From Chthoniobacteraceae bacterium (GTDB taxonomy: Bacteria > Verrucomicrobiota > Verrucomicrobiia > Chthoniobacterales > Chthoniobacteraceae): a DNA stretch of 34,795 bases. The notes under the pieces were generated by a model. That model did not search any database and was not told where the DNA came from. It saw only the letters and a program-made list of their open reading frames with translations. Below, one piece after another: positions 995-15,923 of the stretch; position 1 is the stretch's first letter, and the number at the start of each line of letters is the position of its first letter. A program made the position numbers and the translations under genes. The stretch covers positions 1-34,795 of the forward strand of contig CANFNA010000015.1 in the NCBI GenBank assembly GCA_947448395.1. Direction: 5' to 3'.

Positions 995-2469
995 ATGAAC
1001 CGTTCCCTAGAGTCTTCGCCTGATCGTTCGAATCTGATTCATCCCGAGAACATTCCCTACTCTTCTCGGAGGGATTTTTTGATTCGGCATGGACTTGGAT
1101 TTGGCGCAGTTGGAATGGCCGCGATGTACGGGATCAATCCTTTTGATCTTCAAGCGGCAGCTCCGCAGGCTTCTGTCGGAGGGAATCCAAGCGTTACGCC
1201 GAAAGGGCCTTTGGCGCCGAAGAAACCGCACTTTACTGCTAAGGCGAAGGCGGTGATTCACATTTTTGCACCAGGCGCACCCTCTTCCGTCGACACATGG
1301 GATCCGAAGCCTTTGTTGAACAAACACGACGGCAAGAACATTCCGGGCTATCAGGGCATCGCTTTTGGCTCTCCCTTTAAGTTTCAGAAGCAGGGTAAAT
1401 CAGGCATCGAGGTGTCTGAGGTTTTTCCGCAAATTGGGAAACACATCGACGACCTAGTGGTAGTGCGCTCTCTGTTTGCTGAGATTCCGGACCACGTTAT
1501 TGCTGGGAGCATGATGAACACGGGCTCGCCTCAGCTTCCGAAGCCGAGCATTGGGTCATGGGCTCTTTACGGGCTGGGGTCTGAGAATCAGAACATGCCC
1601 GGATTTATTACACTCGGAGGAGAGCCTGAATGGAGGCAATGTTCGTTCATGCCGGGGATCTACCAAGGCTGTAACGTCAACTATAGTCCGACGCAGCCAC
1701 TCTCAAGTATTCTTGCGAACATCCGAAGTCAGTTCAGTTCGCTGGATCGTCAGAAGCGACAGTTGGAAATGGCGAGCATGCTGAACAAGATGCATGCCGA
1801 GAAATTACAGCGCGACTTGCAGCTTGAGGCTCGAATCGAGGCGTTTGAAATCGCCTTCAAGATGCAGACTGAAGCGACGGATGCATTCGATGTGAGTAAA
1901 GAGACGCAGGCGACGCGCGACATGTACGAAAAGCTTCCTGGGAGCACGACGAAGAATGCGCACGGCACGAAACTCTTGGTGGCTCGGCGTTTAATTGAAA
2001 GAGGGGTGCGCTTCGTTCAAGTGCCGATTGGAGGTTGGGATCACCACAACGATATCGAGACTGCACTTCCTTTGATTGCGAACTCAACGGATGGTGCCGT
2101 TGCGGCTCTCCTGACCGACCTCAAGCAGCGCGGTTTGTTGGATTCTACATTGGTGATTTGGGGGGGGAGTTTAGCCGGACGGTGACTCGAGATGGGCAGG
2201 GAGGAGGAGCTAAGCCTGGGCGGGATCATAACGGGCAAACGCTTTGTTGCTGGATGGCGGGCGGAGGGGTGAAGGCGGGAACGGTTTACGGAGCTACGGA
2301 CGAATTTGGCGGCCGCTCCGTCGAAAACCGAATGCACATCCATGATCTTCATGCGACTTGGCTGCACCTGCTTGGGTTTGACCACACCAAACTCACTTAC
2401 GATTATAACGGCCGCAGTTTCCGTCTCACGGACAACTTTGGGGAAGTGGCCAAGGACCTGATTGCTTAA
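995..2469 (+). pseudogene. DUF1501 (sulfatase-like) Tat-exported protein, interrupted by a frameshift in a G8 run
   Basis: Two overlapping frames together encode one DUF1501 protein of about 491 residues, a normal length for this PVC-rich family, whose alkaline phosphatase/sulfatase-like fold has no proven substrate. The first frame (995-2185) starts with a twin-arginine signal (SRRDFLIRHG, near residues 24-33) and a hydrophobic segment, continues through FAPGAPSSVDTWDPKP and GGWDHHNDIE, then falls out of frame after LVIWGG. The second frame continues seamlessly with EFSRTVTRDG, GRDHN, WMAGGGVKAG, YGATDEFG and DLHATWLHLLG up to 2469; all are family hallmarks. The break is at eight consecutive G bases (2160-2167): one extra G would restore the frame. 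It may be a sequencing error, a true mutation, or slippage-dependent expression. The PSCyt1 gene follows at 2500, the usual partner of DUF1501 genes in these phyla. Confidence 0.85.
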
Positions 2470-2499
2470 CTTTATTTGGACAGGCCATTGACTCTTTGT

Positions 2500-5475
2500 A
2501 TGAAAGTAAATCGCGTCTTTATCAGTACGATTGCCAGTCTTCTTAGTTTGCCTCTGGCGGTGCACGCTGCGGTAGCCGTCGCCATTCCGCCGGAGCAAGT
2601 GCAGTTTTTCGAAAGCAAGATCCGACCAATTTTGGTGAATCACTGTCTTGAGTGTCATTCGGCTGAAAAGGGAAAGACCAAGGGTAGTTTTAGCATGGAT
2701 ACGCGGGAGGAGATTTTGAAGGGCGGCGAAACTGGGGCAGCCTTCAAGCCTGGTGACGCAAAAGGGAGTGCGATGATTAAAGCGGTGGAGTGGACGGATG
2801 ACCTTCAAATGCCGCCTAAGAAGAAACTTTCGGATGATCAGATTAAGGACTTAACGGAATGGGTCGCCATGGGAGCCCCGGATCCTCGGGCGGGAGGATC
2901 CGTGGGTAAGCCGAGTAAAAAAGATCACTGGGCGTTTCAACCGGTAAGTCGTCCGACGGCTCCTGCGGTGAAGAATGCGGACTGGTGCGTGAACTCCGTG
3001 GACAAGTTTGTTTTGGCGAAGCTGGAAGAGAAACAGATGCTTCCCGCTCCTCCTGCTTCGAAGGAAGCTCTTTTGAGGCGCGCTTATTTCGATCTCATCG
3101 GATTGCCGCCGTCTCCTGCAAAGATTCTGGCATTTGTCCAAGATGAAAGTCCCGATGCTTTTGCGAAGGTCGTGGAAGAGTTATTAGCCTCGCCGCAGTA
3201 CGGGGAGCGCTGGGGGCGTCACTGGCTGGATACCGCTCGTTACGCGGACACAAAGGGATTTATCCCTGAAAGTTCGATGGAAGATTATCATTATCCCTTT
3301 GCGTACACTTATCGCGATTGGGTGACTAAAGCGTTCAATGAGGACATGCCGTATGATCAATTCATCATACAGCAATTGGCTGCGGACAAGATTCCCAATA
3401 ACAAGCGCGAGAACTTGGCTGCGTTAGGGATTCTCACCCTTGGCAAGAAATTCCAGGATCCCGAGGAGGTCGTGGCGGATCGAATTGACGTTATTGGACG
3501 TGGATTGCTGGGTTTGACTGTGGCTTGCGCGCGTTGCCACGACCACAAATTTGACCCGATTTCCATCAAAGATTACTACGCCTTGCGCGGAGTATTCACG
3601 AGCGTTCGAGAGCCGGTGGATTTGCCCGTCATTCACGGCGATCCAAATTCTGCAGAGGTGCAAGAGTTCAACCAAAGGCTTGCCGATTTACAGAAGCAGA
3701 ACTTGGAAGGATTTTATGCCGCCCACAAAGAGTTTTCAGATGCCTTCCGCAAGCATGCTGAGGCGTATTTGGAAGTAGCCTACTTGTCCCGCAAGGATGC
3801 TCCTGAAGCGGAGCGCAAAAGGGCGGATCAGTTGGAGGCAACGCACAAACTGGATCCGAATATTATTGAGCAGGTGAAGAGATCTATCGTGCCGAACAAT
3901 CCTGTGGCGGGGCCTTTGGCAAAAATCCTTTCTGGAGAGAGCCAAGAGTCGGTGAATCAATCCATCGACCAAGGAAAGTTTAACAAGGGCAATGTGAACC
4001 TGATGGTCGCGCAGTTTTTGAAAGAAAGCCTCCCTGCGGCTCCGGAGAAGAAAGCGGCGGCTTTCGCGAAGTTGTTTTTGGCGGTGGAGTCAAAGGTTGC
4101 ATCCGCATACCAAACCATGGGGGATTCTTCCAAGAATGCGATGGAATCACCGGAAAAGGGGCTTTTGGAGATTGTCGGTTTTCCGCTCAAGCCGATTTCA
4201 GCAGCGGAGCTACCCGATCATGAGGCGGTGAGAACGGCGTGGATCAAGACGGTTCCGTTCCGTAGTCGAGGCCTGTTTTGGACTCGTTCCAAGTATGTCC
4301 AAATTAGTGAATTGATGATGAGTCCAAAAGGGGCGCCGGTCCGTGCTATGGTGATGGAGGATTTACCAAAGCCGATAGACTCACCTGTTTTTCCGAGGGG
4401 CAATAGACCTGCTCCGGATGCGCCGAAGGTGCCTCGTCGGTTTCTGGAAATTTTGAGTTCTCAACAGGCTGAGCCGTTCAAGGATGGGAGTGGGCGCTTG
4501 GAATTAGCGAAGGCGATTGCTGACAAGAGTAATCCTCTCACGGCGCGAGTGATGGTGAATCGGATTTGGATGCACCACTTTGGAGAAGGGTTGGTTCGGA
4601 CTCCTGATGACTTGGGAAACCAGTCCGGAAAGCCAACGCACCCAGAGTTGCTGGATTTTTTAGCGTCGTGGTTCATGGAAGATTTCGGTCCGGCTAAGCC
4701 GGCTTGGTCTGTTAAGGCGATGCACAAAGCCATCATGCTTTCCAAAACTTATCAGCAAACGAGTACTTCGGGGATGCGTCAGCAGGACGTGGATCCTGGC
4801 AATCAACTCCTCTGGCGGGCAAATTTGCGACGTCTGGATTTTGAGAGCTTCCGCGATTCGCTGCTGACGATGGCTGGGAAACTGGATCTCCAGATGGGTG
4901 GAGCGCCGGTGAATATTATCGACGAACCGTTTTCTCTCCGTCGGTCTGTTTATGGGTATGTGGACCGCGGCAACATGCCGGATTTGCTGATGCAGTTTGA
5001 CGTAGTGAATCCCGTGCAGCCTAACTCGCAGCGCCGATCAACCTTGGTTCCCCAGCAGGCGCTGTTCTTGATGAACAGCCCGTTTGTCGTGATGGTCACC
5101 AAACAGATCATTTTGAGGCCTGAGATTCAGCGTGCTGAAAATGATCGCCAGCGCATTTTGGCTATTTACAGAATTGTTCTTCAGAGGACGCCTTCGAAAG
5201 AGGAGTTTGATTTGGCCACTCAGTTTCTGGCGCGAGAGGCTAAAAGTCAGGCGGCCGAGGAAAAAGAAATGAAAGCCGTGGCTGCGGAGTCCTCAAAAAT
5301 GGCAGCCAAAAATAATGTAACTACTCCCAAGGTGGTTGGTGCAGCCGCTCTTCAAAAGAACATGACTAAGGCCGTCGTCAACGAGGGCGATGTGATTCAG
5401 AGGATTCGTCTCTCGCCGTGGGAAACGCTCGTGCAGACGCTTCTATTTGCGAATGAGGCGGCTTACGTGAACTGA
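2500..5475 (+). CDS. Secreted PSCyt1/DUF1549/DUF1553 protein (planctomycete-type cytochrome c)
   Basis: A 991-residue protein of the large PVC family with an N-terminal planctomycete cytochrome c domain (PSCyt1), then DUF1549, then DUF1553 at the C-terminus. The ATG at 2500 is preferred over an in-frame TTG at 2476 because it gives a clean signal peptide (MKVNRVF, then a hydrophobic stretch ending VHA-A). The heme-binding motif CLECH is at residues 49-53, with a likely distal Met in LQMPPKKKL. DUF1549 contains YGERWGRHWLDTARYADTKG and the second Cys-His motif CARCHDHKFDPI; DUF1553 contains RVMVNRIWMHHFGEGLVRTP and NPVQPNSQRRSTLVPQQ. The protein should act in the periplasm with covalent heme. 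It follows the DUF1501 gene by 30 bases, so both are probably one operon; the biochemical role of the pair is unknown, though redox-linked polysaccharide breakdown has been suggested for such families. Confidence 0.93.
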   Translation: MKVNRVFISTIASLLSLPLAVHAAVAVAIPPEQVQFFESKIRPILVNHCLECHSAEKGKTKGSFSMDTREEILKGGETGAAFKPGDAKGSAMIKAVEWTDDLQMPPKKKLSDDQIKDLTEWVAMGAPDPRAGGSVGKPSKKDHWAFQPVSRPTAPAVKNADWCVNSVDKFVLAKLEEKQMLPAPPASKEALLRRAYFDLIGLPPSPAKILAFVQDESPDAFAKVVEELLASPQYGERWGRHWLDTARYADTKGFIPESSMEDYHYPFAYTYRDWVTKAFNEDMPYDQFIIQQLAADKIPNNKRENLAALGILTLGKKFQDPEEVVADRIDVIGRGLLGLTVACARCHDHKFDPISIKDYYALRGVFTSVREPVDLPVIHGDPNSAEVQEFNQRLADLQKQNLEGFYAAHKEFSDAFRKHAEAYLEVAYLSRKDAPEAERKRADQLEATHKLDPNIIEQVKRSIVPNNPVAGPLAKILSGESQESVNQSIDQGKFNKGNVNLMVAQFLKESLPAAPEKKAAAFAKLFLAVESKVASAYQTMGDSSKNAMESPEKGLLEIVGFPLKPISAAELPDHEAVRTAWIKTVPFRSRGLFWTRSKYVQISELMMSPKGAPVRAMVMEDLPKPIDSPVFPRGNRPAPDAPKVPRRFLEILSSQQAEPFKDGSGRLELAKAIADKSNPLTARVMVNRIWMHHFGEGLVRTPDDLGNQSGKPTHPELLDFLASWFMEDFGPAKPAWSVKAMHKAIMLSKTYQQTSTSGMRQQDVDPGNQLLWRANLRRLDFESFRDSLLTMAGKLDLQMGGAPVNIIDEPFSLRRSVYGYVDRGNMPDLLMQFDVVNPVQPNSQRRSTLVPQQALFLMNSPFVVMVTKQIILRPEIQRAENDRQRILAIYRIVLQRTPSKEEFDLATQFLAREAKSQAAEEKEMKAVAAESSKMAAKNNVTTPKVVGAAALQKNMTKAVVNEGDVIQRIRLSPWETLVQTLLFANEAAYVN

Positions 5476-5509
5476 CGCGGCGGGCCCGCCTTATGCCCGA
5501 CTCTCTTCG

Positions 5510-5552
5510 GGGCGCGCAGGAGCTTTTAGTAGCGTCTGCGCGCCCTTTTTTT
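5510..5552 (+). terminator. Rho-independent terminator after the PSCyt1 gene
   Basis: A perfect 10-bp GC-rich stem (GGGCGCGCAG at 5510-5519 pairing with CTGCGCGCCC at 5536-5545) encloses a 16-base loop and is followed at once by seven T residues (5546-5552). It sits 34 bases past the PSCyt1 stop and ends the 995-5475 transcription unit before waaA. Confidence 0.85.
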
Positions 5553-5597
5553 GGATGAGATCCTACCTTTTTCAGGTGTTCTTGGGCGCCGTGTTGG

Positions 5598-6938
5598 ATG
5601 AGTCTTAGCGCCATGTCTGCTCGTGAACTTCCAGAAAGTATTGGGCTGCCCTTGCGATTGTATCGCATGTTGGGTCCGCTGCTCGCCGTAGTTCTGTTGC
5701 CGTCGCTGTTCCTTCGCTTGCGGCGCAGAGGAGGTTGGAGACCGAATTTTGAACAGCGCTTCGGGTGGTTTTTACAAAAGGACAAAGACCGTCTTACAGG
5801 GCATTCGTGGACATGGATTCACTCCATAAGTGTTGGAGAGACTTTAGTGGCTTTGAAGCTTGCGAGAGCACTCCAAGAGGTTCAGCCGAGTATGCGAATT
5901 GCGCTCTCAGTGACAACTTCAACGGGCTACGCGATTGCGGAACAGGCGACAGCAAATGGAATTTTTGTCATGTACAATCCCGTCGATTTTGAAGGTCCTG
6001 TGTCCCGCTGTTTGGATTTATTGAGGCCGGCGCGATTGATTCTGATCGAGGGAGAAATCTGGCCAAATTTGGTTTCGATGTGCTTTGAGCGAGGCATTCC
6101 AGTCTGTTTAGCCAATGCACGGCTTTCGCCTCGATCTGCGCGTCGTTTTACAAAGTGGCGGCGTTGGTGTGAGCCATTTTTTCAACTCTTACAATGGATC
6201 AGCATTCCTGACCCCGAGGAAATCCGGCGCTGGGAGTGCCTTGGCATTCCTTCTGATCGCTTGAAGCTTACTGGGAGCATCAAGTTTGATGAGGGTCTAT
6301 TAACGACTTCTGACGCACGTGCTGATCGCCTGCGAGCGCTTATGGAGTCGCTTGGTGGCGGGAGATTGAGTCCGATCTTGGTTGCAGGGAGCACGCATGA
6401 GGGCGAGGAGGAGATGCTTGTTCAACTTCTTCCGCACTGGAGAAGGACGCATGCGACGCTCAAACTAATTCTGGTTCCGAGGCACGTCGAGAGAGTCCCA
6501 GACTTGCTTCGCAGGCTCCGCTTATCTGGCCTTCAGATTGTGCTGCGCAGTGAACTAGAGAAGGTGTCTTCAGCCGATGTCATCTTGGTGGATAGTACTG
6601 GTGAGCTGCGAGACTGGTATAAACTCGCTACGGTCGTCTTTGTGGGAAAGAGCCTCACTGCGAATGGAGGACAGAACCCTGTGGAGCCTGCGCGGTTAGG
6701 AAAGGCCGTCGTATTTGGACCTCACATGGAGAACTTTGAGGTCGTCGTCAAACATCTCCTAGACGCGAAGGGCGCCATTCAAATTAGAGATAAGGCGCAT
6801 CTGGGTGAGGAAGTCAGTCGGTTGTTAGAAAGTCCGGATGAGCGTCGCGCGCTTGGGGAAAATGCGTGTGAGGTCCTGCAGAGACATCAAGGAGCTGCGA
6901 GACGGACGGCCGAGCTCATTTTAGGGGGATCTTATTGA
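5598..6938 (+). CDS. waaA: 3-deoxy-D-manno-octulosonic acid (Kdo) transferase
   Basis: A 446-residue glycosyltransferase that adds Kdo from CMP-Kdo to lipid A precursor at the cytoplasmic face of the inner membrane, the first core step of LPS synthesis. The order of parts is typical: an N-terminal membrane anchor (about residues 22-42), then the acceptor-binding Glycos_transf_N domain with HSISVGE, whose Glu81 corresponds to the catalytic base described for Aquifex WaaA, LIEGEIWPNL, ANARLSPRS and LTGSIKFD; the C-terminal donor domain has VAGSTHEGEEE, LVPRHVERV and a closing NGGQNPVEPARLGKAVVFGPHMENF. The ATG at 5598 is used; an in-frame ATG at 5613 is equally possible since no strong ribosome binding site decides. 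The last 23 bases overlap the 3' end of the opposite-strand propeller gene. Its presence implies a Gram-negative envelope with LPS. Confidence 0.95.
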   Translation: MSLSAMSARELPESIGLPLRLYRMLGPLLAVVLLPSLFLRLRRRGGWRPNFEQRFGWFLQKDKDRLTGHSWTWIHSISVGETLVALKLARALQEVQPSMRIALSVTTSTGYAIAEQATANGIFVMYNPVDFEGPVSRCLDLLRPARLILIEGEIWPNLVSMCFERGIPVCLANARLSPRSARRFTKWRRWCEPFFQLLQWISIPDPEEIRRWECLGIPSDRLKLTGSIKFDEGLLTTSDARADRLRALMESLGGGRLSPILVAGSTHEGEEEMLVQLLPHWRRTHATLKLILVPRHVERVPDLLRRLRLSGLQIVLRSELEKVSSADVILVDSTGELRDWYKLATVVFVGKSLTANGGQNPVEPARLGKAVVFGPHMENFEVVVKHLLDAKGAIQIRDKAHLGEEVSRLLESPDERRALGENACEVLQRHQGAARRTAELILGGSY

Positions 6939-8412
6939 GCGTATAATAGGCGTCCGAGTGATCGAGAGGCTCTCCGGCCTCCGATTTCAATCCGTCTGCG
7001 TGGAGCTCGTGGACGTACGAGGCACGGAGCCCTTCGACCTTCAGCCGAGTGCGCAGGCGGTCTTCGCTTACGACAGCGGCTATAATGTGGTTTGTCGCTG
7101 TTTCAATTTCGTCACTGCCGTAAGCGCTCGAATAAAGGTACGTGTAGTTCGTCATCCTGTAGGACTTCAAATCTGTTGCGCTAGCCACGTCCACCGGACG
7201 GGTGAATGAAAGTTCGAAGCCATCTGGAAGTGCGCGCATTTCGCGAATGGCGAATGGAACTTCGCCTTTCCAGCGAACACGTTGTAGGCCGTAAGATTTT
7301 GTGCCTAAAGAAGACCAGCCACGACTGGTCATACCGACCATGAGACTTCCGTCCTGAGCAAACAGGAGTCTAACGATGCCCGAGGCAAAGCCGCTCAAGA
7401 AAGGAAAGGTAGCGCCTTGGTATTCACCTCCAACTTTTTCGAGGAACACACGGCCGATCTTCGCGTCGGTGAATTCTGCTACGAAGAGCTGGCCGTCGAA
7501 AGGTCCGAATTTTCCACCCGCATTGCACACCGCAAGGTCTGTGCCGCTTCGGCCCATTTTATTGTAGGGGAGCCAAACGGCAGGGGGGCGCATCTCCGGA
7601 AGCGCCCGCAAGGCGTCTGGATAAGCAACCTTGGAGGGAACGGGCGCGGAGAGTTTTAATGGGGAGTCTTCTCGATTTTGTGATGCGATTCCCTCAGGGT
7701 TGAGAAAGAAGGTACCCTTCCGCATGTGGTAGATTGGGGTCGCTGGGATCCATGTTCCTTGCTGATCAACGCAGAACATATCGCCTTCAAGATTGGCGCC
7801 CAGTCCGCATGGAGAGCGCATGCCTGCGACCATGGGAACAAATTCCCCAGTTTCGGAGATTATCCCGCCCCAACCTCGCCAAGGCTTCTCGTTGGCAGAG
7901 TGGTCGCCCATGTCGACGTTCAATGTGACCCAGTGCTGACCTTTCCCGTCGCGTTTAGGGCCGTAGGCATAGCCGTGGTAAGCCCCTGAGACATTCCATC
8001 CGCGCCCCGCGGTGGAGTATTCATCGGCAATACCATCGCCATCAGAGTCACGCAGTCGCGTCATTTCGGTGCGTTGAGTGACTAGGAGGCTGTCTTTGTC
8101 CCAGAGCGCGCCCAGTGGTTCGTGGAGTCCAGCTGCGAACTGTTTGAATACGCGTTTACTTGGCGAGTCAGCCAGGGCGCCCTCAAGCATCCAGACTTCG
8201 CCTTTGCGGATCACCAGAGCGAGACGACCGTCTGGAAGCCAATCCATGCCGCCGACCTCAAGTGGAATACCGGAGCCCGGCTTCCAATCTTTGCTGCGGG
8301 AAGCGGTTGGCGAGTCTGCGGTCATAATATCGGCGATTTCGTATGCAGAGTTCTTGGCGAGCGCTGGGAGGGCGCTCGCGAAGACGATAAAAAGGAGAGC
8401 CCAACGTATCAT
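6916..8412 (-). CDS. Secreted beta-propeller, DUF7133/membrane-bound dehydrogenase-like
   Basis: A 498-residue exported protein with an obvious signal peptide (MIRWALLFIVFASALPALA). The fold reads as a six-bladed propeller of the soluble glucose dehydrogenase/NHL type that PVC genomes annotate as putative membrane-bound dehydrogenase. Supporting segments are GGMDWLPDGRLALVIRKG, DSDGDGIADEY (a calcium-type loop), AYGPKRDGKG, GGIISETGEFVPMVAGMRSPCGLG, and LFVAEFTDAKIGRV. The substrate is unknown; a sugar or polyol is a guess from the context. It is the last gene of the minus-strand operon and overlaps the pentaheme cytochrome gene by four bases (ATGA), so translation is coupled; the cytochrome is the natural electron acceptor. 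Its final codons overlap the 3' end of waaA on the other strand. Confidence 0.8.
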   Translation of the reverse strand: MIRWALLFIVFASALPALAKNSAYEIADIMTADSPTASRSKDWKPGSGIPLEVGGMDWLPDGRLALVIRKGEVWMLEGALADSPSKRVFKQFAAGLHEPLGALWDKDSLLVTQRTEMTRLRDSDGDGIADEYSTAGRGWNVSGAYHGYAYGPKRDGKGQHWVTLNVDMGDHSANEKPWRGWGGIISETGEFVPMVAGMRSPCGLGANLEGDMFCVDQQGTWIPATPIYHMRKGTFFLNPEGIASQNREDSPLKLSAPVPSKVAYPDALRALPEMRPPAVWLPYNKMGRSGTDLAVCNAGGKFGPFDGQLFVAEFTDAKIGRVFLEKVGGEYQGATFPFLSGFASGIVRLLFAQDGSLMVGMTSRGWSSLGTKSYGLQRVRWKGEVPFAIREMRALPDGFELSFTRPVDVASATDLKSYRMTNYTYLYSSAYGSDEIETATNHIIAAVVSEDRLRTRLKVEGLRASYVHELHADGLKSEAGEPLDHSDAYYTLNKIPLK

Positions 8413-10499
8413 TTCCAGAGATAGGTGAATTGACGACTACCTGTTTGCGAAGACGACTCTTCGAGGACCTGTGCGCCTTCGGGGTGGATGGGCGCGGGAT
8501 GTGTGGTTGAAGAAGATGTCCACTCGAGTGTTCTCCTAAAACCGTTGGGAATCCCTTCAAACCGATCGAAGCCTTTGTCTTGGCCGTGGCTGAGGAGGAA
8601 GACTGGGTTTCCCTCCTTATCAAGTTTGTAACCCTCGAAGCGGAATGGAGCAGTGGCTGAGTCCTGTAATTTCCAACGTCCAAGCACTCGGCCTGATGGT
8701 TTTTCAAAAGGTGTGAAGCGCGAGAACCAAGTGTTATAGGCATCGAAGAACTTGCCCTCCCATGCGAGCGCGGGTTGCCCTGTTTTTCCGTCATACGCGA
8801 GATGGATTCCCGTCGGGAATCCGACTAAGACGGCGTGCGATCCGACGCCTTCCATAAAAGTGCGCTGTACGATGGGCCTGTCTTTGGGAATGAGGTCAAA
8901 CTCTCCGTGACTCTTTTGCGGGAAACCCTCTGGCTCTCCATTTGCGCTTTTAGCAAACGAATAGATCGAAGCGATTTGGAGGTCTGTATTTCCGCCGCAG
9001 ATTTGGAGGTTCGATGCGGTGCCGTTTGGCCAGAAAGACGGCATGAGCGTTCCTGGACGATAGGCGGCAGGGTTAATGAGATATTCGCGGAGCCATTCTG
9101 CGGTGAGTCGGTTGCCGATGTTGCTTAGATCCAAGGCTTGTATGCCGAGGGCTGGTTGAGAGCCCCAACGATGGCAAGTGATACATCCAATGCCCCCGTT
9201 GGTTCCCAGGAGTTTCCGCCCCGCGCTATCGTCTCCTCCGGGCAACGGCTTTTCAGCACGCGCATCTGTTTTTGCGAGGAGCGAGGCGAGGCCGTTAGTG
9301 GATTTTCCAAAGATCGGCATCTTCGTGTGCAAGTAGGGGCGCACTCGGTAATCCCCGGAAAGAACCTTTTCAAGCCACTCCGGGCGAAGCTTTCGTCCTA
9401 CAGCGGTTAGCGGGGGCGGGTATCTGCCGGTGTCTCCTAGATTATGATCGCCGCCAAAATAGGCCTTCCGAGCCGCGTCCGGGCCGCCAGATCCAGAGCG
9501 ATCATGGCAGGCGGTGCAATTCAGCGCTTCTAAAGAAAGTGAAACCACCAAAGCATCGGAAGGTGTCTCGGGTCTCTTTTTTAAGAAAAGTTCAAGGGAC
9601 TGCCTCTGCTGGTCGGAGAGATTATATTCGGGAATGCCAATCGCGGGTTTGAGAGCGAGACATCCTTTCTGCATATTTGACAGCGGCACGACACTCGCTG
9701 CGGTTTCTTTTGGGAGTTCATGGCAAGCAGCGCATCGCGCTTCTCGAATCAACACTTCTCCCCGCTTAGCCAGAGCTGCATCTTGCGGCCAATCCTCGAT
9801 ACTGTTCGCTGCGACTCCATTACTGCCCTCAAACCGCATTAAATAGCCGGAAACATCGACGACGTCGTCATCTTCGGCAACAAACTTTGGCATGCGGCCG
9901 TCTGATCGATGTTTGAGCGGATCTTTCAAGAAATCGACCAGAGAGATGATTGAGTATTTAGAGGGGATTTCTGGGAATGCGATCGATGCGTAAGTGAATT
10001 CAGCGGCCTTAGGAATTCCTTCCGGAGGTTGAAACTCTGGGTCTGGTGCATGGCAGGCCACGCATCCGGAGGAATGAAAGAGGTCGCGACCTCGAGCACT
10101 GTTGATGTGGCGAGGAGGTTTCGTTTTCGATGCGGGCGATTTGAGGGAGGCCAAATAGGCAAGGATGGCGTCGACATCAGCAGCGGGAACGCCGTGTATC
10201 AGGCTGGGCATGGTGGTTCCAACGCGTGTTTCAGAGGGGTTTTCGAGGAATTGCTTCACCCATTCGCGGTGGAACTTTTTATCGATACCGGATAGCTGGG
10301 GTCCTTTTCGCTCTGGGAGCCCAGTGCTGCCCTCGTGACACCGTACACAATTTAGTTCGTTAAAAAGAAGCCTGCCTCCCTCAGCACTAGGGGCGTCCGC
10401 ATGAAATCGATTGAATCCCACCACAAAAGGCTCTGCGATGGCCCCAGGGGCGGTTAGAGCGAGCGCGGTAGAAATGAGCAGCAAGCGGATTGCGTTCAT
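8409..10499 (-). CDS. Secreted pentaheme c-type cytochrome with C-terminal extension
   Basis: A 696-residue periplasmic protein with a cleavable signal (MNAIRLLLIS, Ala-rich end near residue 22) and five CxxCH heme-attachment motifs: CVRCH (51-55), CVACH (146-150), CAACH (256-260), CTACH (328-332) and CITCH (439-443). Methionines that could be distal ligands follow in TMPSLIHG, GRMPKF, TKMPIFG and LMPSFWPNG. After the last heme module about 200 residues form a different, beta-rich domain (with GVGSHAVLVGFP and HLAYDGKTGQPALAWEGKFFD) that also occurs in Verrucomicrobiota cytochromes. Role: electron transfer, very probably from the dehydrogenase-like propeller encoded next. It overlaps both neighbours by four bases (ATGA), the mark of a tightly coupled operon. 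Heme attachment would need the ResB/CcsA pair encoded at 17060-20516. Confidence 0.9.
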   Translation of the reverse strand: MNAIRLLLISTALALTAPGAIAEPFVVGFNRFHADAPSAEGGRLLFNELNCVRCHEGSTGLPERKGPQLSGIDKKFHREWVKQFLENPSETRVGTTMPSLIHGVPAADVDAILAYLASLKSPASKTKPPRHINSARGRDLFHSSGCVACHAPDPEFQPPEGIPKAAEFTYASIAFPEIPSKYSIISLVDFLKDPLKHRSDGRMPKFVAEDDDVVDVSGYLMRFEGSNGVAANSIEDWPQDAALAKRGEVLIREARCAACHELPKETAASVVPLSNMQKGCLALKPAIGIPEYNLSDQQRQSLELFLKKRPETPSDALVVSLSLEALNCTACHDRSGSGGPDAARKAYFGGDHNLGDTGRYPPPLTAVGRKLRPEWLEKVLSGDYRVRPYLHTKMPIFGKSTNGLASLLAKTDARAEKPLPGGDDSAGRKLLGTNGGIGCITCHRWGSQPALGIQALDLSNIGNRLTAEWLREYLINPAAYRPGTLMPSFWPNGTASNLQICGGNTDLQIASIYSFAKSANGEPEGFPQKSHGEFDLIPKDRPIVQRTFMEGVGSHAVLVGFPTGIHLAYDGKTGQPALAWEGKFFDAYNTWFSRFTPFEKPSGRVLGRWKLQDSATAPFRFEGYKLDKEGNPVFLLSHGQDKGFDRFEGIPNGFRRTLEWTSSSTTHPAPIHPEGAQVLEESSSQTGSRQFTYLWK

Positions 10500-11413
10500 A
10501 CGGTTGCTTCCAAGCAGGAGTCGATGTAGGCCCTAGCTCGTTTCACTGCACTCGTAACCTCTTCAACAGTCGGCAGAATAGGGATTCCGCGGGGTGTGGG
10601 GTGCATGAATAGGGAAACGAGTCCAGAAAACTGGATCTGCCGAAGCGCCTTAACGATAGGGCGATAATCGAGCCCTCCGCCGAACCCTGGCAGCTGTTGT
10701 AATTCAATCTCCTTAGCGACTTTGGTCCGCGCGCCTTCGGAGTATTCCTGAAAATAGATGAAAGGGATCTGAGACGCGCCCAAGTCTTGAATGAGAGAGG
10801 GGATTTGGTCAGTCCAATGGTGGAGATGGTGGAAGGCCAAGGCGACTCCGACAGAGCGGTAAGGGTTGAGTTCGCCAAAATAACGGAGGGAATCCGGATG
10901 ATGCAAAGTGGAACCTTGGTGATTTTCGATAGCAATGGTGATACCGAGCTCAGCGGCCTTTTCGGCGTGAGGCCTAAGGGATTCGAAAAACGACCTGATT
11001 GTGTTTTTCAACTCCGAGCCCGTTACATCAGTTTTCCCCGGGAAGCCTGTGAGCACGATCTTTCCGCCATGCTGGTTGAGCCAAGCCATTTCCTCTTGGA
11101 CTCGGAATGGGCCGAGGGGATAGCAGGTGCTGACTCCTAATTTGACTTGGTGCCTTGATAGCAAAGAGGCGAAGGCCTCGTCTCCCATCTCTCGGATTTG
11201 TTCGCGTTGATTGCCATGCACGCGGCACCAGACATCAAGAGCCTCGCACCCTGACTTGGCGACCTCTGGAAGGATGGATTCCAGAGGCATCTCGCCGTAG
11301 AGCGCTGAAGAAAGAACATATCGCAACTTAAAACTAGATTCAGGCGCCGCCAACGAGCGCCTTGAAGTCGAAGTTGCGGCGAGGGCGCAGAGGAAATGGC
11401 GTCGTGAGAGCAT
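10496..11413 (-). CDS. Exported TIM-barrel sugar phosphate isomerase/epimerase-like protein
   Basis: A 305-residue protein of the xylose isomerase-like TIM barrel (AP endonuclease 2) superfamily. It starts with a twin-arginine motif (SRRHFLCALAA), so it is probably folded in the cytoplasm and exported by Tat. Barrel landmarks are the opening strand (LRYVLSSALYG), SGCEALDVWC, GITIAIENHQG (the Glu is a usual metal ligand), VGVALAFHHLHHW, and a closing FMHPTPRG. Such proteins in PVC bacteria usually act as isomerases, epimerases or lyases on sugars or keto-sugars, with a divalent metal. The reaction here cannot be fixed from sequence. Overlaps the cytochrome gene by four bases and lies 44 bases after the DJ-1-type gene; export suggests it works on the product of the periplasmic dehydrogenase. 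Confidence 0.82.
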   Translation of the reverse strand: MLSRRHFLCALAATSTSRRSLAAPESSFKLRYVLSSALYGEMPLESILPEVAKSGCEALDVWCRVHGNQREQIREMGDEAFASLLSRHQVKLGVSTCYPLGPFRVQEEMAWLNQHGGKIVLTGFPGKTDVTGSELKNTIRSFFESLRPHAEKAAELGITIAIENHQGSTLHHPDSLRYFGELNPYRSVGVALAFHHLHHWTDQIPSLIQDLGASQIPFIYFQEYSEGARTKVAKEIELQQLPGFGGGLDYRPIVKALRQIQFSGLVSLFMHPTPRGIPILPTVEEVTSAVKRARAYIDSCLEATV

Positions 11414-11457
11414 GGCGCGTTTTGGAAGGGGCTAGTCGCGTTGCAGAAGCCGTCGCT

Positions 11458-12024
11458 TTAAGCGCCGCTTTGCGAATCGAGCATGCGAATCCACGGAGCG
11501 ATGAAATGACCGCTATCGTGGTAGGTGCGTCCGCTGACCATATGACGGTCGATGACGCACGGCTCATTCACATAGATCCCGCCGCAGACCTCTAAGTCGA
11601 ATTTGCACTTTGCGACGGTTGCCATACGGAGACCTTTGACGATTCCAGCGCGCGCTGGGATTTCAACGCCGTGGCAGACGCTTGCCATGGGCTTTTGATG
11701 GTCCCAGAACCAACGGGTGATGCGCAGAAGATCTTCGTCCTCGCGGATGTATTCTGGGGCCCGTCCTCCGCTGAAGAAAATGCCGGCATAGTCCTCTGGG
11801 TTGATGTCTTTGAAAGCGATCTCAGCATCAATGGAGTAGCCTTCCCATTCTTTGGTGATGGTCCATCCAGGTTTGATTTCGTGAAGGACCATTTGGTACT
11901 TGCGCTTTTCTGGAGCAGCAACGACTGGCTGATAGCCGCCCTCAATCAAGCGGTAGTAAGGATAGAGAGTATCGACCGTTTCGGTTGCGTCGCCGACGAT
12001 AATTAGGACTTTAGGATGTGACAT
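11458..12024 (-). CDS. DJ-1/PfpI superfamily protein
   Basis: A 188-residue cytoplasmic protein (no signal) with the DJ-1/PfpI class I glutamine amidotransferase-like fold. The N-terminal strand KVLIIVGDATE carries the Glu (residue 15) that typically contacts the nucleophile. The nucleophile elbow is ASVCHGVEIPARAG with Cys117-His118. FFSGGRAPEYIRED is the family glycine-rich loop, and the C-terminus has the GRTYHDSGHFI strand and helix. Known members act as deglycases, glyoxalases, chaperones or proteases; substrates are rarely predictable. It is the first gene of the operon running from 12024 to 6916 and its start faces the XylR-like regulator across 156 bases. It may repair or detoxify reactive carbonyl products of the sugar oxidation encoded downstream; that is inference. 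Confidence 0.9.
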   Translation of the reverse strand: MSHPKVLIIVGDATETVDTLYPYYRLIEGGYQPVVAAPEKRKYQMVLHEIKPGWTITKEWEGYSIDAEIAFKDINPEDYAGIFFSGGRAPEYIREDEDLLRITRWFWDHQKPMASVCHGVEIPARAGIVKGLRMATVAKCKFDLEVCGGIYVNEPCVIDRHMVSGRTYHDSGHFIAPWIRMLDSQSGA

Positions 12025-12180
12025 GAGCAGAAGTGAGGAAGCGAGATTACACGAGCCGACTTCACTTTTTGGGCAAGCAGAAAACTCGTTTCAGTCCCTC
12101 ATCATAATAGGCCTTTTCTGGTTTGTGATTCCGATTATGATGCAGCGGCACTACGATTTTTCGTCACCCCAATTGCAATC
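12025..12180. promoter_or_regulatory. Divergent promoter region with an inverted repeat (candidate operator)
   Basis: This 156-base gap separates the DJ-1-type operon (left) from the XylR-like regulator (right), so it must hold both promoters. It contains a perfect 9-bp inverted repeat, CATCATAAT at 12100-12108 and ATTATGATG at 12134-12142, with a 25-base spacer, so the two half-sites lie about three helical turns apart. AraC/XylR-type dimers commonly bind pairs of half-sites in such divergent regions, making this a plausible operator for autoregulation and operon control. No convincing -10/-35 pair was identified. Operator function is inferred from position only. Confidence 0.4.
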
Positions 12181-13365
12181 ATGATAGGTCGTGATCATTC
12201 CATGCCGAGGGTCGCGCTTTTGATTGAAACCACTCGCAGCTACGCCCGTGAAGTGCTCTCAGGGGTTCGTCGTTATCTGGATGAACATGGGCCATGGTCG
12301 ACGTATTTGGAGCTGCGTGCTTTGGACTCTCCACCTCCACAGTGGCTCCGAGAGTGGGATGGTGATGGAATTTTAGCGCGGACGATGAGCGTAGAGATGG
12401 ACAAGGCACTCTCCGTGACAGGACTCCCTGTGGTGGAGCTGAGAGCCACCCATTTTTCAAGTCATCGGCCGTTTGTGGGGATGGATAATGTGCAAATTGG
12501 AAGGATGGCCGCGGAACACTTTCTGGAACGCGGATACCGCGTCTTTGCGGCTTACAGTCTGGAGACGGAGCGGTTTTTTGAGGAGCGTGTGAACACGTTT
12601 GTTTGTGAATTGAAGGCTAAGGGGTTTCCCTGCGAGGTGCTCCCCGAGAAGAAATCGGATACAGCAGAGGACTGGGAAAAAAGCCAGTTGAGGCTCATGA
12701 ACTGGCTTTCACAGCTCCCTAAACCAGTGGCGATCTTTGCGGCTAACGATCAGCTTGGAGTACGCCTTTTAGAAGCGTGCCGGCGCTCCGGAATTGCGGT
12801 GCCCGAGGAGGTGGCTGTGATGGGGGCAGAGAACGAGGAAACCTTATGTGCATTCGCGAGTCCAAAGCTGAGCAGTGTGCAACTCGATGGCTTTTCTGTG
12901 GGCTTCGCGGCAGCAAAACTTCTTGATGGCCTCATGCGTTTTAAGCGAGGCATGGAGACTCGCCCCGAGAACGTTTTGATCAAGCCGAAAGGGGTCGTAG
13001 TTCGGGGCTCGTCGGATCAGTTCATGATTGCTGACCAGCTAGTGGCGCATGCGGCGCGATTGATCCGTGAAAACGCGACTTTTGGATTAAATGTCGATGA
13101 GTTGTGTCGTCGGTTGAACGTTTCTCGCAGCACGCTAGATCGCAGAATGAAGGGTGCATTGAAGCGAACGCCGAAAGAGGAAATTCTGCGTGTACGCTTC
13201 CGCGAAGTGCATCGATTACTGCGGGAGACGGATTTGACCGTCGAAGCCATTGCGAGCCAGACGGGATTTACAGGTGCGCAGTACCTCCATGAAGCCTTTC
13301 GAAGTGAATTCGGAGTGACTCCAGGTGACTTTCGGTTGTCTGCCGTTTCAAATCGCGAACGTTGA
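12181..13365 (+). CDS. XylR-type transcriptional regulator (LacI-like sensor fused to AraC HTH)
   Basis: A 394-residue regulator of the XylR family: an N-terminal periplasmic-binding-protein-like ligand domain and a C-terminal AraC DNA-binding domain. The sensor starts with VALLIETTRSYAREVLSGVRRY, the family opening, and has GMDNVQIGRMAAEHFLERGY, VAIFAANDQLGVRLLEACR and VPEEVAVMGAENEETLC. The AraC part (about 283-388) has two helix-turn-helix units, LNVDELCRRLNVSRSTLDRR and VEAIASQTGFTGAQYLHEAF, ending with FGVTPGDFR. Such proteins sense a sugar, xylose in E. coli; in Verrucomicrobiota the sugar varies. It is divergent to the 6916-12024 operon and close to the CE7 esterase gene, so the sensed ligand may be a sugar processed by them. 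An alternative ATG lies at 12202 (MPRVALL), which fits family starts as well. Confidence 0.93.
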   Translation: MIGRDHSMPRVALLIETTRSYAREVLSGVRRYLDEHGPWSTYLELRALDSPPPQWLREWDGDGILARTMSVEMDKALSVTGLPVVELRATHFSSHRPFVGMDNVQIGRMAAEHFLERGYRVFAAYSLETERFFEERVNTFVCELKAKGFPCEVLPEKKSDTAEDWEKSQLRLMNWLSQLPKPVAIFAANDQLGVRLLEACRRSGIAVPEEVAVMGAENEETLCAFASPKLSSVQLDGFSVGFAAAKLLDGLMRFKRGMETRPENVLIKPKGVVVRGSSDQFMIADQLVAHAARLIRENATFGLNVDELCRRLNVSRSTLDRRMKGALKRTPKEEILRVRFREVHRLLRETDLTVEAIASQTGFTGAQYLHEAFRSEFGVTPGDFRLSAVSNRER

Positions 13366-13385
13366 AGAGCCTTACCGGCTCTTTT
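13365..13385. terminator. Hairpin between the converging XylR-like and CE7 genes
   Basis: A perfect 7-bp stem (AAGAGCC at 13365-13371, GGCTCTT at 13377-13383) with a 5-base loop is followed by only two more T residues on the plus strand. It begins in the stop codon of the regulator, and its loop contains the stop codon of the oppositely oriented esterase gene. It may serve as a compact terminator for the plus-strand gene, but the T run is short. Confidence 0.4.
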
Positions 13386-14697
13386 GTTGCTCGATATGCT
13401 TCAGAACGGCATCCGCCATGGCGGCGCTGGATTTGTTCGATTGAGCGTGGCCGCTAAGGATGTCGTTTTCGATATGCTTTGCAACGGGTACGCGATTGTA
13501 AGCCGCATAAACGCTACTTGGAGGACAGGTGGTATCGATGAAGCCGACGGTAAAGCAGCAACCGGATGCTTTAATCCGTGAGGCAAAATTCGCGGCATCA
13601 ATATAGCGCGACGCCTCGAGAATCTGCGCGTCTGGTTTTCCTGAATCGATGGTGGGAACGATTTTAGGCCAGCCCGCGATCCGATTGGCCACCATCCCAG
13701 AATGGTCGCATCCGGCGGGAACGCCTGCAGAGAAAAAAGTGACACGAGGGTCTAGTCCAGCGGCGACGATTGCTTGGTAACCTCCTTGGCTGCTGCCGTA
13801 GACGACGACGCTTTTCCCATCCCACTCGGGCCTTGCAGTGAGCACATCAATTGCACGAACCAAGCGCAGGAACATCCCGCGGAAGTAAGAAGTATCGCGA
13901 GATTCACGACCATCATACCGGTAGGTCTTAAGAGCGCCTTCCAGCAGGCCCTTATAAAACTCGTCCGGCTTTCCGTTGGGAATGCCGTGCGCGTTGATAT
14001 CCATCGCGAGAAAGCCTTTCGACGCCCAGCCGGTTGCGGATCCGAGACTGCTGCCTCTGACTCCGGCGCCGTGGACCGTTAATATGATTGGCAGGCTTTT
14101 GGGCTTCGCTTGCGCGGGAATTGCTAGATAGCCGGAGACGGGTGCGCCGATACACGGAGCCTGCAGATCAAAGGCTTCCACTGACTTGTTTGGCTGAGAA
14201 ACCGGGGTGAGTTCAGGAGATAAAGGGACTTTCGAAAGCAGGGCCTTTTGAGAGGACCAGAAGGAATCAAAGTCGTCAGGAACTGGAAGGCTCCCTTGTA
14301 TTTTCTCGGGATCAATTCCTGCCCCAGCAAGCGCTGTCAGCGGTTTTTCTTTTGGCGTTTCGCGGTACGATACCCGGAGTTGAAGAAAGCCGGGTTCATC
14401 CAGTTTTCCGGTGACGGAAGCCTTCCCGTTTTCAAGGGATGCCTTTCCCTGCAGGTTTAGCGGTAAGCCGTCTTTTAATAGGGACCACTCCACTTCGCCC
14501 GAGGCTACAGGAGTTCCCGAATGAGTGACGTGAATGTTGAAGAGAACATCTTCCGACTTTTTGTAGATGGCACTTTCTCGCTCTGCCCGAGCGGTGATTT
14601 TAACCGAACTTTCCGGCGCAGATGGGGGTGTTTGTGCCCCGTGCAGGTGGAAAGAAAGAAGGAGGAATGATAACGCGAGAAAAGCGCGGCGTTGCAT
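13372..14697 (-). CDS. CE7-family acetyl (xylan) esterase with N-terminal Ig-like domain, secreted
   Basis: A 441-residue secreted alpha/beta hydrolase. The signal peptide is MQRRAFLALSFLLLSFHLHG. Residues about 33-130 look like an immunoglobulin-like beta domain (KSEDVLFNIHVTHSGTPVASG), typical of the long Verrucomicrobiota/Planctomycetota form. Then comes the acetyl xylan esterase/cephalosporin C deacetylase domain: LPVPDDFDSFW, TVHGAG (oxyanion region), YRYDGRESRDTSYFRGMFL, the nucleophile elbow VVVYGSSQGG (Ser303), GFIDTTCPPSS (Asp388) and SGHAQS (His417). CE7 enzymes remove acetyl groups from short acetylated xylo-oligosaccharides and other acetyl esters. The 50-base gap to the upstream EF-hand gene suggests one operon. 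Convergent with the XylR-like regulator, which may sense a released sugar. Confidence 0.92.
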   Translation of the reverse strand: MQRRAFLALSFLLLSFHLHGAQTPPSAPESSVKITARAERESAIYKKSEDVLFNIHVTHSGTPVASGEVEWSLLKDGLPLNLQGKASLENGKASVTGKLDEPGFLQLRVSYRETPKEKPLTALAGAGIDPEKIQGSLPVPDDFDSFWSSQKALLSKVPLSPELTPVSQPNKSVEAFDLQAPCIGAPVSGYLAIPAQAKPKSLPIILTVHGAGVRGSSLGSATGWASKGFLAMDINAHGIPNGKPDEFYKGLLEGALKTYRYDGRESRDTSYFRGMFLRLVRAIDVLTARPEWDGKSVVVYGSSQGGYQAIVAAGLDPRVTFFSAGVPAGCDHSGMVANRIAGWPKIVPTIDSGKPDAQILEASRYIDAANFASRIKASGCCFTVGFIDTTCPPSSVYAAYNRVPVAKHIENDILSGHAQSNKSSAAMADAVLKHIEQQKSR

Positions 14698-15215: not shown

Positions 15216-15923
15216 ATGAGAGCCTTCCACCCTTGGACAAAAATCAGACACGTCTTTCTGAGCGTCCTTTTATCCTCGTTGAGTTTGATGTGTTTTGCGG
15301 TCGATGAGCAGGTCGGCGGGTTTGAGAAGTGGGAGAAGTCGGTTGCCGATTTTGAGAAAAATGATGCGCTTCAACCTCCGGAAAAAAATGGGATCGTTTT
15401 TGTGGGAAGCTCCAGCATCCGGAAGTGGACGACGTTGTCTGAGGATTTTCCAGACCAGCGGTTGATTAATAGAGGTTTTGGCGGATCGCAAATGGAGGAT
15501 GCCGCTTATTTTGCAGACCGCCTTGTCCTAGCTTACGCGCCAAGATTCATTGTCCTCTACGCGGGCGGAAACGATATTAACGCGCACAAATCTGCTGAGC
15601 AGGTGCTTTCGTCGTTCCAAAAGTTTGTGGAGAAAATCCGAGCCAAGCAGCCAGAAACGCCGATTGCCTGCATTTCGATAGCGGGCAATCCGAAAAGGTG
15701 GTCGCAAGTGGCTGAGGTGATTAAGGCGAATGCTTTGATCGAGATTTATACAAAGCAGACTCCTGGGCTGCTTTTCATCGACGTCTTTCACGCGATGCTT
15801 GGGGTGGACGGGTTGCCACGCCCGGAGATTTTTAGTTCAGACCAACTCCACATGAATGCGGAGGGGTACAAGCTTTGGACGAAGATTATCGGGCCGTATC
15901 TCCCAAAATCCAAAGTGCCTTAA
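15216..15923 (+). CDS. Secreted SGNH/GDSL-family hydrolase
   Basis: A 235-residue secreted hydrolase, with a signal peptide reaching about residue 29 (HVFLSVLLSSLSLMCFA). All four SGNH blocks are visible: block I VFVGSSSIRKW (nucleophile Ser66, in the GSSSIR variant of GDS), block II NRGFGGSQ (Gly90), block III LYAGGNDIN (Asn119) and block V SSDQLHMNAEGY (Asp209, His212). This variant is common for bacterial PAF acetylhydrolase-like and carbohydrate acetylesterases. The physiological substrate is not known; acetylated glycans are plausible, because the neighbour across the divergent promoter region is an operon with a CE7 acetyl esterase. It converges on sufT. Confidence 0.92.
   Translation: MRAFHPWTKIRHVFLSVLLSSLSLMCFAVDEQVGGFEKWEKSVADFEKNDALQPPEKNGIVFVGSSSIRKWTTLSEDFPDQRLINRGFGGSQMEDAAYFADRLVLAYAPRFIVLYAGGNDINAHKSAEQVLSSFQKFVEKIRAKQPETPIACISIAGNPKRWSQVAEVIKANALIEIYTKQTPGLLFIDVFHAMLGVDGLPRPEIFSSDQLHMNAEGYKLWTKIIGPYLPKSKVP

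Follow-up and report, generated by a model that had tools for sequence, protein, structure and literature searches.

The locus considered here raises the question of which process could bring together, in one transcription unit, an exported propeller protein, a multiheme cytochrome, an exported TIM barrel and a cytosolic DJ-1 protein. It lies on contig CANFNA010000015.1 of a Chthoniobacteraceae bacterium (assembly GCA_947448395.1), of which a stretch of 34,795 nucleotides, the window, was analyzed. Four tightly packed minus-strand genes encode a six-bladed propeller resembling sugar dehydrogenases (PROP, 6916-8412), a pentaheme cytochrome with a C-terminal beta domain (CYT, 8409-10499), a TIM barrel of the AP_endonuc_2 family carrying a twin-arginine translocation (Tat) signal (ISO, 10496-11413) and a DJ-1/PfpI protein (DJ1, 11458-12024), and they face a plus-strand XylR/AraC-type regulator with a periplasmic-binding-protein-like sensor domain (12181-13365). 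The original prediction, made from the sequence alone, had described this arrangement, and the open reading frames (ORFs) match it exactly, including the two ATGA junctions of four bases each (8409-8412 and 10496-10499), the five CxxCH motifs of CYT and the Tat motif, which reads SRRHFL at the start of ISO and recurs as RRx[FL] near the N-terminus in 57 of 81 family sequences. Signal peptides had been assigned to three products; that of ISO is borne out by the Tat motif, and those of PROP and CYT were judged by eye only. We consider it probable that these genes form a XylR-activated module for periplasmic oxidation, most plausibly of a sugar, because the operon is conserved, the propeller has a dehydrogenase-like fold and paralogues linked to electron carriers, a TonB-dependent receptor lies inside the operon in Opitutaceae, the regulator is accompanied by a conserved predicted promoter and a candidate site, and the DJ-1 active site is intact.

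Linkage of the gene set is conserved in other genomes. When 84,980 species genomes were scanned with the ISO profile, at least 528 relatives were returned, and neighborhoods were counted for the best 80, that is, the nearest relatives only. Within five ORFs of these, CYT is found in 67, DJ1 in 62, PROP in 56 and the XylR-type regulator in 36 cases, and DJ1, CYT and PROP occur all together near 47, with some of the genes counted as absent falling past contig ends. The order XylR, DJ1, ISO, CYT, PROP is found repeatedly, and with dozens of genomes keeping gene order and strand, the arrangement is far beyond chance. The named hosts are mainly Opitutia, relatives of Chthoniobacter and Verrucomicrobiales; outside the Verrucomicrobiota, a CYT-PROP pair occurs in one Planctomycetota locus, in a metagenome-assembled genome (MAG) of the Phycisphaeraceae. 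Within the order, strong relatives of PROP and CYT are confined to the family of the window, with one weak PROP match and two weak CYT matches elsewhere. A close ISO turned up in only 13 of the 387 genomes sampled across the phylum; the operon is best regarded as an accessory unit. Chthoniobacter flavus Ellin428 is a cultured host. In its draft genome (G139, contig C54, approximately 5341-6829), the PROP frame is broken near residue 420, which reflects either an error in sequencing or damage to the gene itself. A literature search, with most subscription papers outside its reach, found no paper describing the module.

The best evidence for the role of PROP comes from the proteins encoded next to its paralogues, of which operon-bearing genomes hold several each. 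We read 69 propeller loci, the operon of the window and some relatives included. A heme or copper carrier is adjacent or fused at 60 of them: the pentaheme kind accounts for 31 (29 neighboring, two fused) and the blue-copper kind for 29 (28 neighboring cupredoxins, one fused). Neither carrier is present at the remaining nine, three of which lie less than 600 bases from a contig edge. The genome of the window itself encodes a single chain of DUF6797, propeller and five hemes. It also holds the blue-copper version (contig C46, 6883-8511 of its locus), in which a protein composed of cupredoxin, PA14 and the C-terminal domain is followed by a PROP paralogue. In a propeller tree, carrier type requires three changes, of which the starred branches force at least two, in a quick tree with some long branches. 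Since unrelated carriers replace each other beside the same propeller, PROP is best understood as a redox enzyme with these proteins as its acceptors, and the exchange supports electron transfer from the propeller to its carrier. The original prediction had proposed such a transfer to the pentaheme protein; the pairing of dehydrogenase and acceptor is upheld by the fold match, the fused paralogues and the exchange of heme for copper carriers. The direction of electron flow is not shown by the carrier exchange.

Local BLAST of modules revealed that the same C-terminal domain ends most carriers of both kinds. In CYT it comprises residues 521-696 (8409-8939, minus strand) and is all-beta in the model, and as it is shared with the cupredoxin partners, we propose that it serves as a docking domain. 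Its reading as a mutarotase-like or YidC-like beta sandwich was set aside, the structure matches being weak (Z up to 8.7). Family scans place cytochrome c domains in CYT. Five CxxCH motifs are present in 62 of 65 CYT sequences, and the invariant methionines M97, M203, M394 and M486 are the likely sixth ligands of four hemes. The third heme has no invariant methionine as a possible sixth ligand; nearby, 61 of 65 sequences retain C280, and His/Cys ligation of this heme is possible.

The fold of PROP points in the same direction. Its structure model is confident (pLDDT 83.8), and the best structural match is 3a9g (Z 29.4, 2.8 Å over 294 residues, 14% identity). Six sugar dehydrogenases of the type that uses pyrroloquinoline quinone (PQQ) head the list at Z 27.7-29.4, followed by lactonases and other propellers at about 23-24. 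Across 54 sequences, a dense set of charged and aromatic residues shows little or no variation, which argues that PROP is not a dead scaffold. In a comparison with the catalytic His and the PQQ-binding residues of GSDH, H146 and R199 are invariant in these sequences, although the profile alignment is weak, its register is unsure and the RNP motif reads RSP. The soluble PQQ-dependent aldose/glucose dehydrogenases (PF07995; 3a9g, 2ism, 2g8s, 3das) share with PROP six blades, a periplasmic location and the closest structural likeness, but PROP differs from them in its low identity (14-18%), its dedicated pentaheme partner gene and its hosts, nearly all of which lack PQQ synthesis. A search of solved structures with the PROP sequence gave no meaningful match.

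Several points weigh against an oxidation module and have to be set beside this evidence. PROP has no PF07995 (GSDH) match at E 0.001, and it scores below the cut-offs of TIGR02604 (27.5 versus 122.2 bits) and DUF7133 (22.7 versus 27 bits, over 61 residues), so that the DUF7133 label of the original prediction is weak. These families, the heme-binding propellers of the Planctomycetes-Verrucomicrobia-Chlamydiae (PVC) bacteria, show weak sequence similarity to PROP and come from the same bacterial group, but the PROP chain carries no CxxCH, its hemes residing on a separate protein. Among operon-bearing genomes, a search for PqqC was positive in one of 14 and a search for PqqE gave one genome over cut-off out of 25, the sole exception being the Chthoniobacter flavus draft. 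This scarcity is hard to blame on incomplete MAGs, since nine of the 14 and ten of the 25 genomes are at least 90% complete. The role of ISO is a further weak point; the loci compared belong to related genomes and cannot count as independent; and for every member of the module the evidence consists of sequence and models.

The near absence of PQQ synthesis from the hosts, together with the fact that lactonase propellers also match at Z of about 23-24, gives some weight to the explanation that PROP is a binding subunit or else a hydrolase akin to the lactonases and esterases of the SMP30/gluconolactonase type, with CYT serving another enzyme or being itself the catalyst and co-transcription reflecting a shared substrate. 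We regard this as unlikely, as dehydrogenases are clearly the better structural matches and as a hydrolase would need no carrier, whereas carriers are fused or adjacent at the great majority of propeller loci and have changed type at least twice. If PROP does use PQQ, nearly all hosts would have to scavenge it. A bolder proposal, which we advance only tentatively and hold to be rather doubtful in its full extent, is that a class of periplasmic propeller dehydrogenases, as yet undescribed, is widespread in the Verrucomicrobiota, works without PQQ, with another or no known cofactor, and accepts interchangeable pentaheme or blue-copper carriers via a C-terminal docking domain common to both kinds; in the present operon it would be joined by a TIM barrel of new active site.

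The sequence of events in the favored oxidation module would begin with the XylR-type regulator, which, judging from its family and the geometry of its site, may bind a direct-repeat site beside the -35 element and activate the operon in response to a ligand that is probably a sugar or a derivative of one. Exported PROP would then oxidize the substrate in the periplasm, as its fold and invariant charged residues suggest, and its electrons would pass to the pentaheme partner docked via the shared C-terminal domain, a step supported by the fusions and the exchange of heme for copper, and from there presumably to the respiratory chain. Tat-exported ISO may act on the substrate or the product, with a chemistry unlike that of classical metal-dependent isomerases, and cytosolic DJ1 might handle a reactive carbonyl after uptake, in the manner of its glyoxalase III-type relatives. 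That the substrate is a sugar, as originally predicted, is plausible, but only the fold, the family of the regulator and the gene context speak for it.

ISO contains a PF01261 domain (57.3 bits against a cut-off of 31.1) and shares its TIM-barrel family with the AP_endonuc_2 isomerases and epimerases (IolI, TM_0416, D-tagatose 3-epimerase), but it differs from them in being exported and in its metal site. The metal ligands of IolI, which we take to be E142, D174, H200 and E246 (positions counted in the alignment, E246 lying just past its printed end), align with E163, A193, F221 and F269 of ISO. In the family of 81 sequences, the ligand E163 is retained, A193 and F269 are found in all 81 and F221 in 78. 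The earlier view that the keto product is isomerized by this protein is therefore not sustained, three of the four canonical ligands being replaced across the family. Family-specific invariants take their place in the conserved set (H165, H195, Q222, E223, K234, E237, H271 and R275, with H196 in 79 of 81), which suggests that ISO has an active site different from that of the canonical family.

This altered site bears on another explanation, in which glycosides are opened by oxidation and beta-elimination: PROP would oxidize a sugar ring carbon, and ISO would eliminate the aglycone, as 3-keto-glycoside eliminases do. The eliminases OGE and CGE are TIM barrels with a Mn site performing such chemistry, and in OGE the metal is bound by His, Asp, His and a weak Glu (PMC10628242). 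PA14 domains in the paralogous copper partners suggest carbohydrate binding (one such partner exceeds the Pfam cut-offs for both plastocyanin/azurin-type and PA14 domains), and the TonB receptors of some operons would suit this scheme as well. The ISO equivalents of the Asp, second His and Glu of OGE appear to be replaced, however, as judged via the IolI register only, and the operon has no flavin-type C3 dehydrogenase; we rate this scheme as decidedly improbable.

DJ1 is the most conserved protein of the operon. It matches PF01965 with 96.2 bits, and its catalytic E15, C117 and H118 are present in 60 of 60 sequences. Its closest solved relative is plant DJ-1D (3uk7, 4ofw), with which it shares the fold family and the catalytic Glu, Cys and His, but it is a single-domain protein within a redox operon and remains below the TIGR01382 subfamily cut-off (113 versus 139 bits). 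Plant DJ-1D is reported to have glyoxalase III activity. As DJ1 carries no signal peptide, judged by eye, it should act in the cytosol. Its conservation, and the existence of loci with DJ1-ISO pairs that lack CYT or PROP, would agree with a carbonyl-stress response in which DJ1 is the central component and the exported proteins serve to detoxify reactive sugars or aldehydes instead of supplying catabolism. Control by a XylR-family regulator and the TonB receptors point instead to the use of an outside compound, leaving this explanation with very little likelihood. Several Opitutaceae have a gene of about 1,000 codons between DJ1 and ISO; the one tested encodes a TonB-dependent receptor, whose presence inside the operon suggests that an outside compound is taken up. 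A MATE-type transporter gene directly follows PROP in many Opitutae (7211-8575 of one locus, L085, and 17 other loci).

Activation by the divergent regulator is suggested by its domains and by the intergenic region. PF13377 (108.5 bits), PF12833 (70.5 bits) and PF22177 (29.4 bits) all exceed their cut-offs, identifying a XylR-type sensor with an AraC-type helix-turn-helix. A consensus scan predicts the operon promoter at 12101-12129 on the minus strand, with -35 ATCACA (12129-12124), a spacer of 17 nt and -10 TATGAT (12106-12101). The candidate activator site (12132-12166) comprises a proximal half, CGATTATGATGCA (12132-12144), and a distal half, TACGATTTTTCGTCA (12152-12166). Of 35 intergenic regions, a set that includes close relatives, 34 carry a block, TmAGGTTTTTsGTCA, conserved at 11 or more of 15 positions, directly ahead of the regulator gene, and in most of them it is preceded by TATGATGCA. 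Observed scores are mostly 13-15 of 15, and the best scores in shuffled sequences are 7-12, mostly 8-9; the copy in the window is weaker, at 12. The best -35 hexamer lies at one fixed offset from the block in 32 of 34 regions, with a spacer to the -10 of usually 16-17 nt. The half-sites are in direct orientation, with a self-similarity peak at a shift of 22 bp, a geometry that fits an AraC-family activator.

The 9-bp inverted repeat at 12100-12142, originally a candidate operator, does exist (12-nt arms at 12100-12111 and 12131-12142, 92% complementary) but is not upheld in that role, as conservation shows in its place a -10/-35 promoter and a block of two same-direction half-sites. Its left arm holds the -10, its right arm overlaps the promoter-proximal half-site, and both 9-mers occur together in none of the 34 other intergenic regions.

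A block-based regulon search in 14 genomes yielded, beyond the operons themselves, one informative site, at a second XylR-DJ1 locus with PSCyt and DUF1501 genes in a relative (L216). A further match between PSCyt and DUF1501 genes (L222) may be due to chance; the other matches examined are mostly intragenic, with counts not far above the control. In the window, a DUF1501 gene and a PSCyt/DUF1549/DUF1553 gene adjoin the operon (995-5475), and since this pair also follows DJ1 at the L216 locus, where the regulator is again of the XylR type and the block is again present, it may be an alternative oxidation module. The planctomycete-specific cytochromes (PSCyt1/2, PSD1) that occur with DUF1501 are, like CYT, heme proteins of PVC bacteria, and are suspected to function in carbohydrate use (PMC5615132), but their domains are unrelated to those of the operon and their systems contain no propeller.

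The PROP gene and a convergent KdtA-like gene (5598-6938, plus strand) share the last 23 bases of their 3' ends (6916-6938). The regulator gene is followed by an acetyl xylan esterase-family gene (13372-14697) and a GDSL hydrolase gene (15216-15923); as both seldom adjoin the operon in other genomes, a link to xylan is a hint only. Xylose as the substrate was likewise not adopted: just two genomes, related ones, have a xylose-isomerase-like gene ahead of DJ1, and as this gene falls below the family cut-off, it is a hint at best.

PVC bacteria encode many heme and propeller proteins of unassigned function that are suspected to take part in carbohydrate use, and the module described here is a concrete, testable unit among them, with a regulator, a promoter and a clear redox hypothesis, and with Chthoniobacter flavus Ellin428 as a cultured host. 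The near absence of the PQQ pathway from its hosts poses the question of the PROP cofactor, which one purification could answer, and the exchange of heme and copper carriers would offer a general handle on the whole propeller family.

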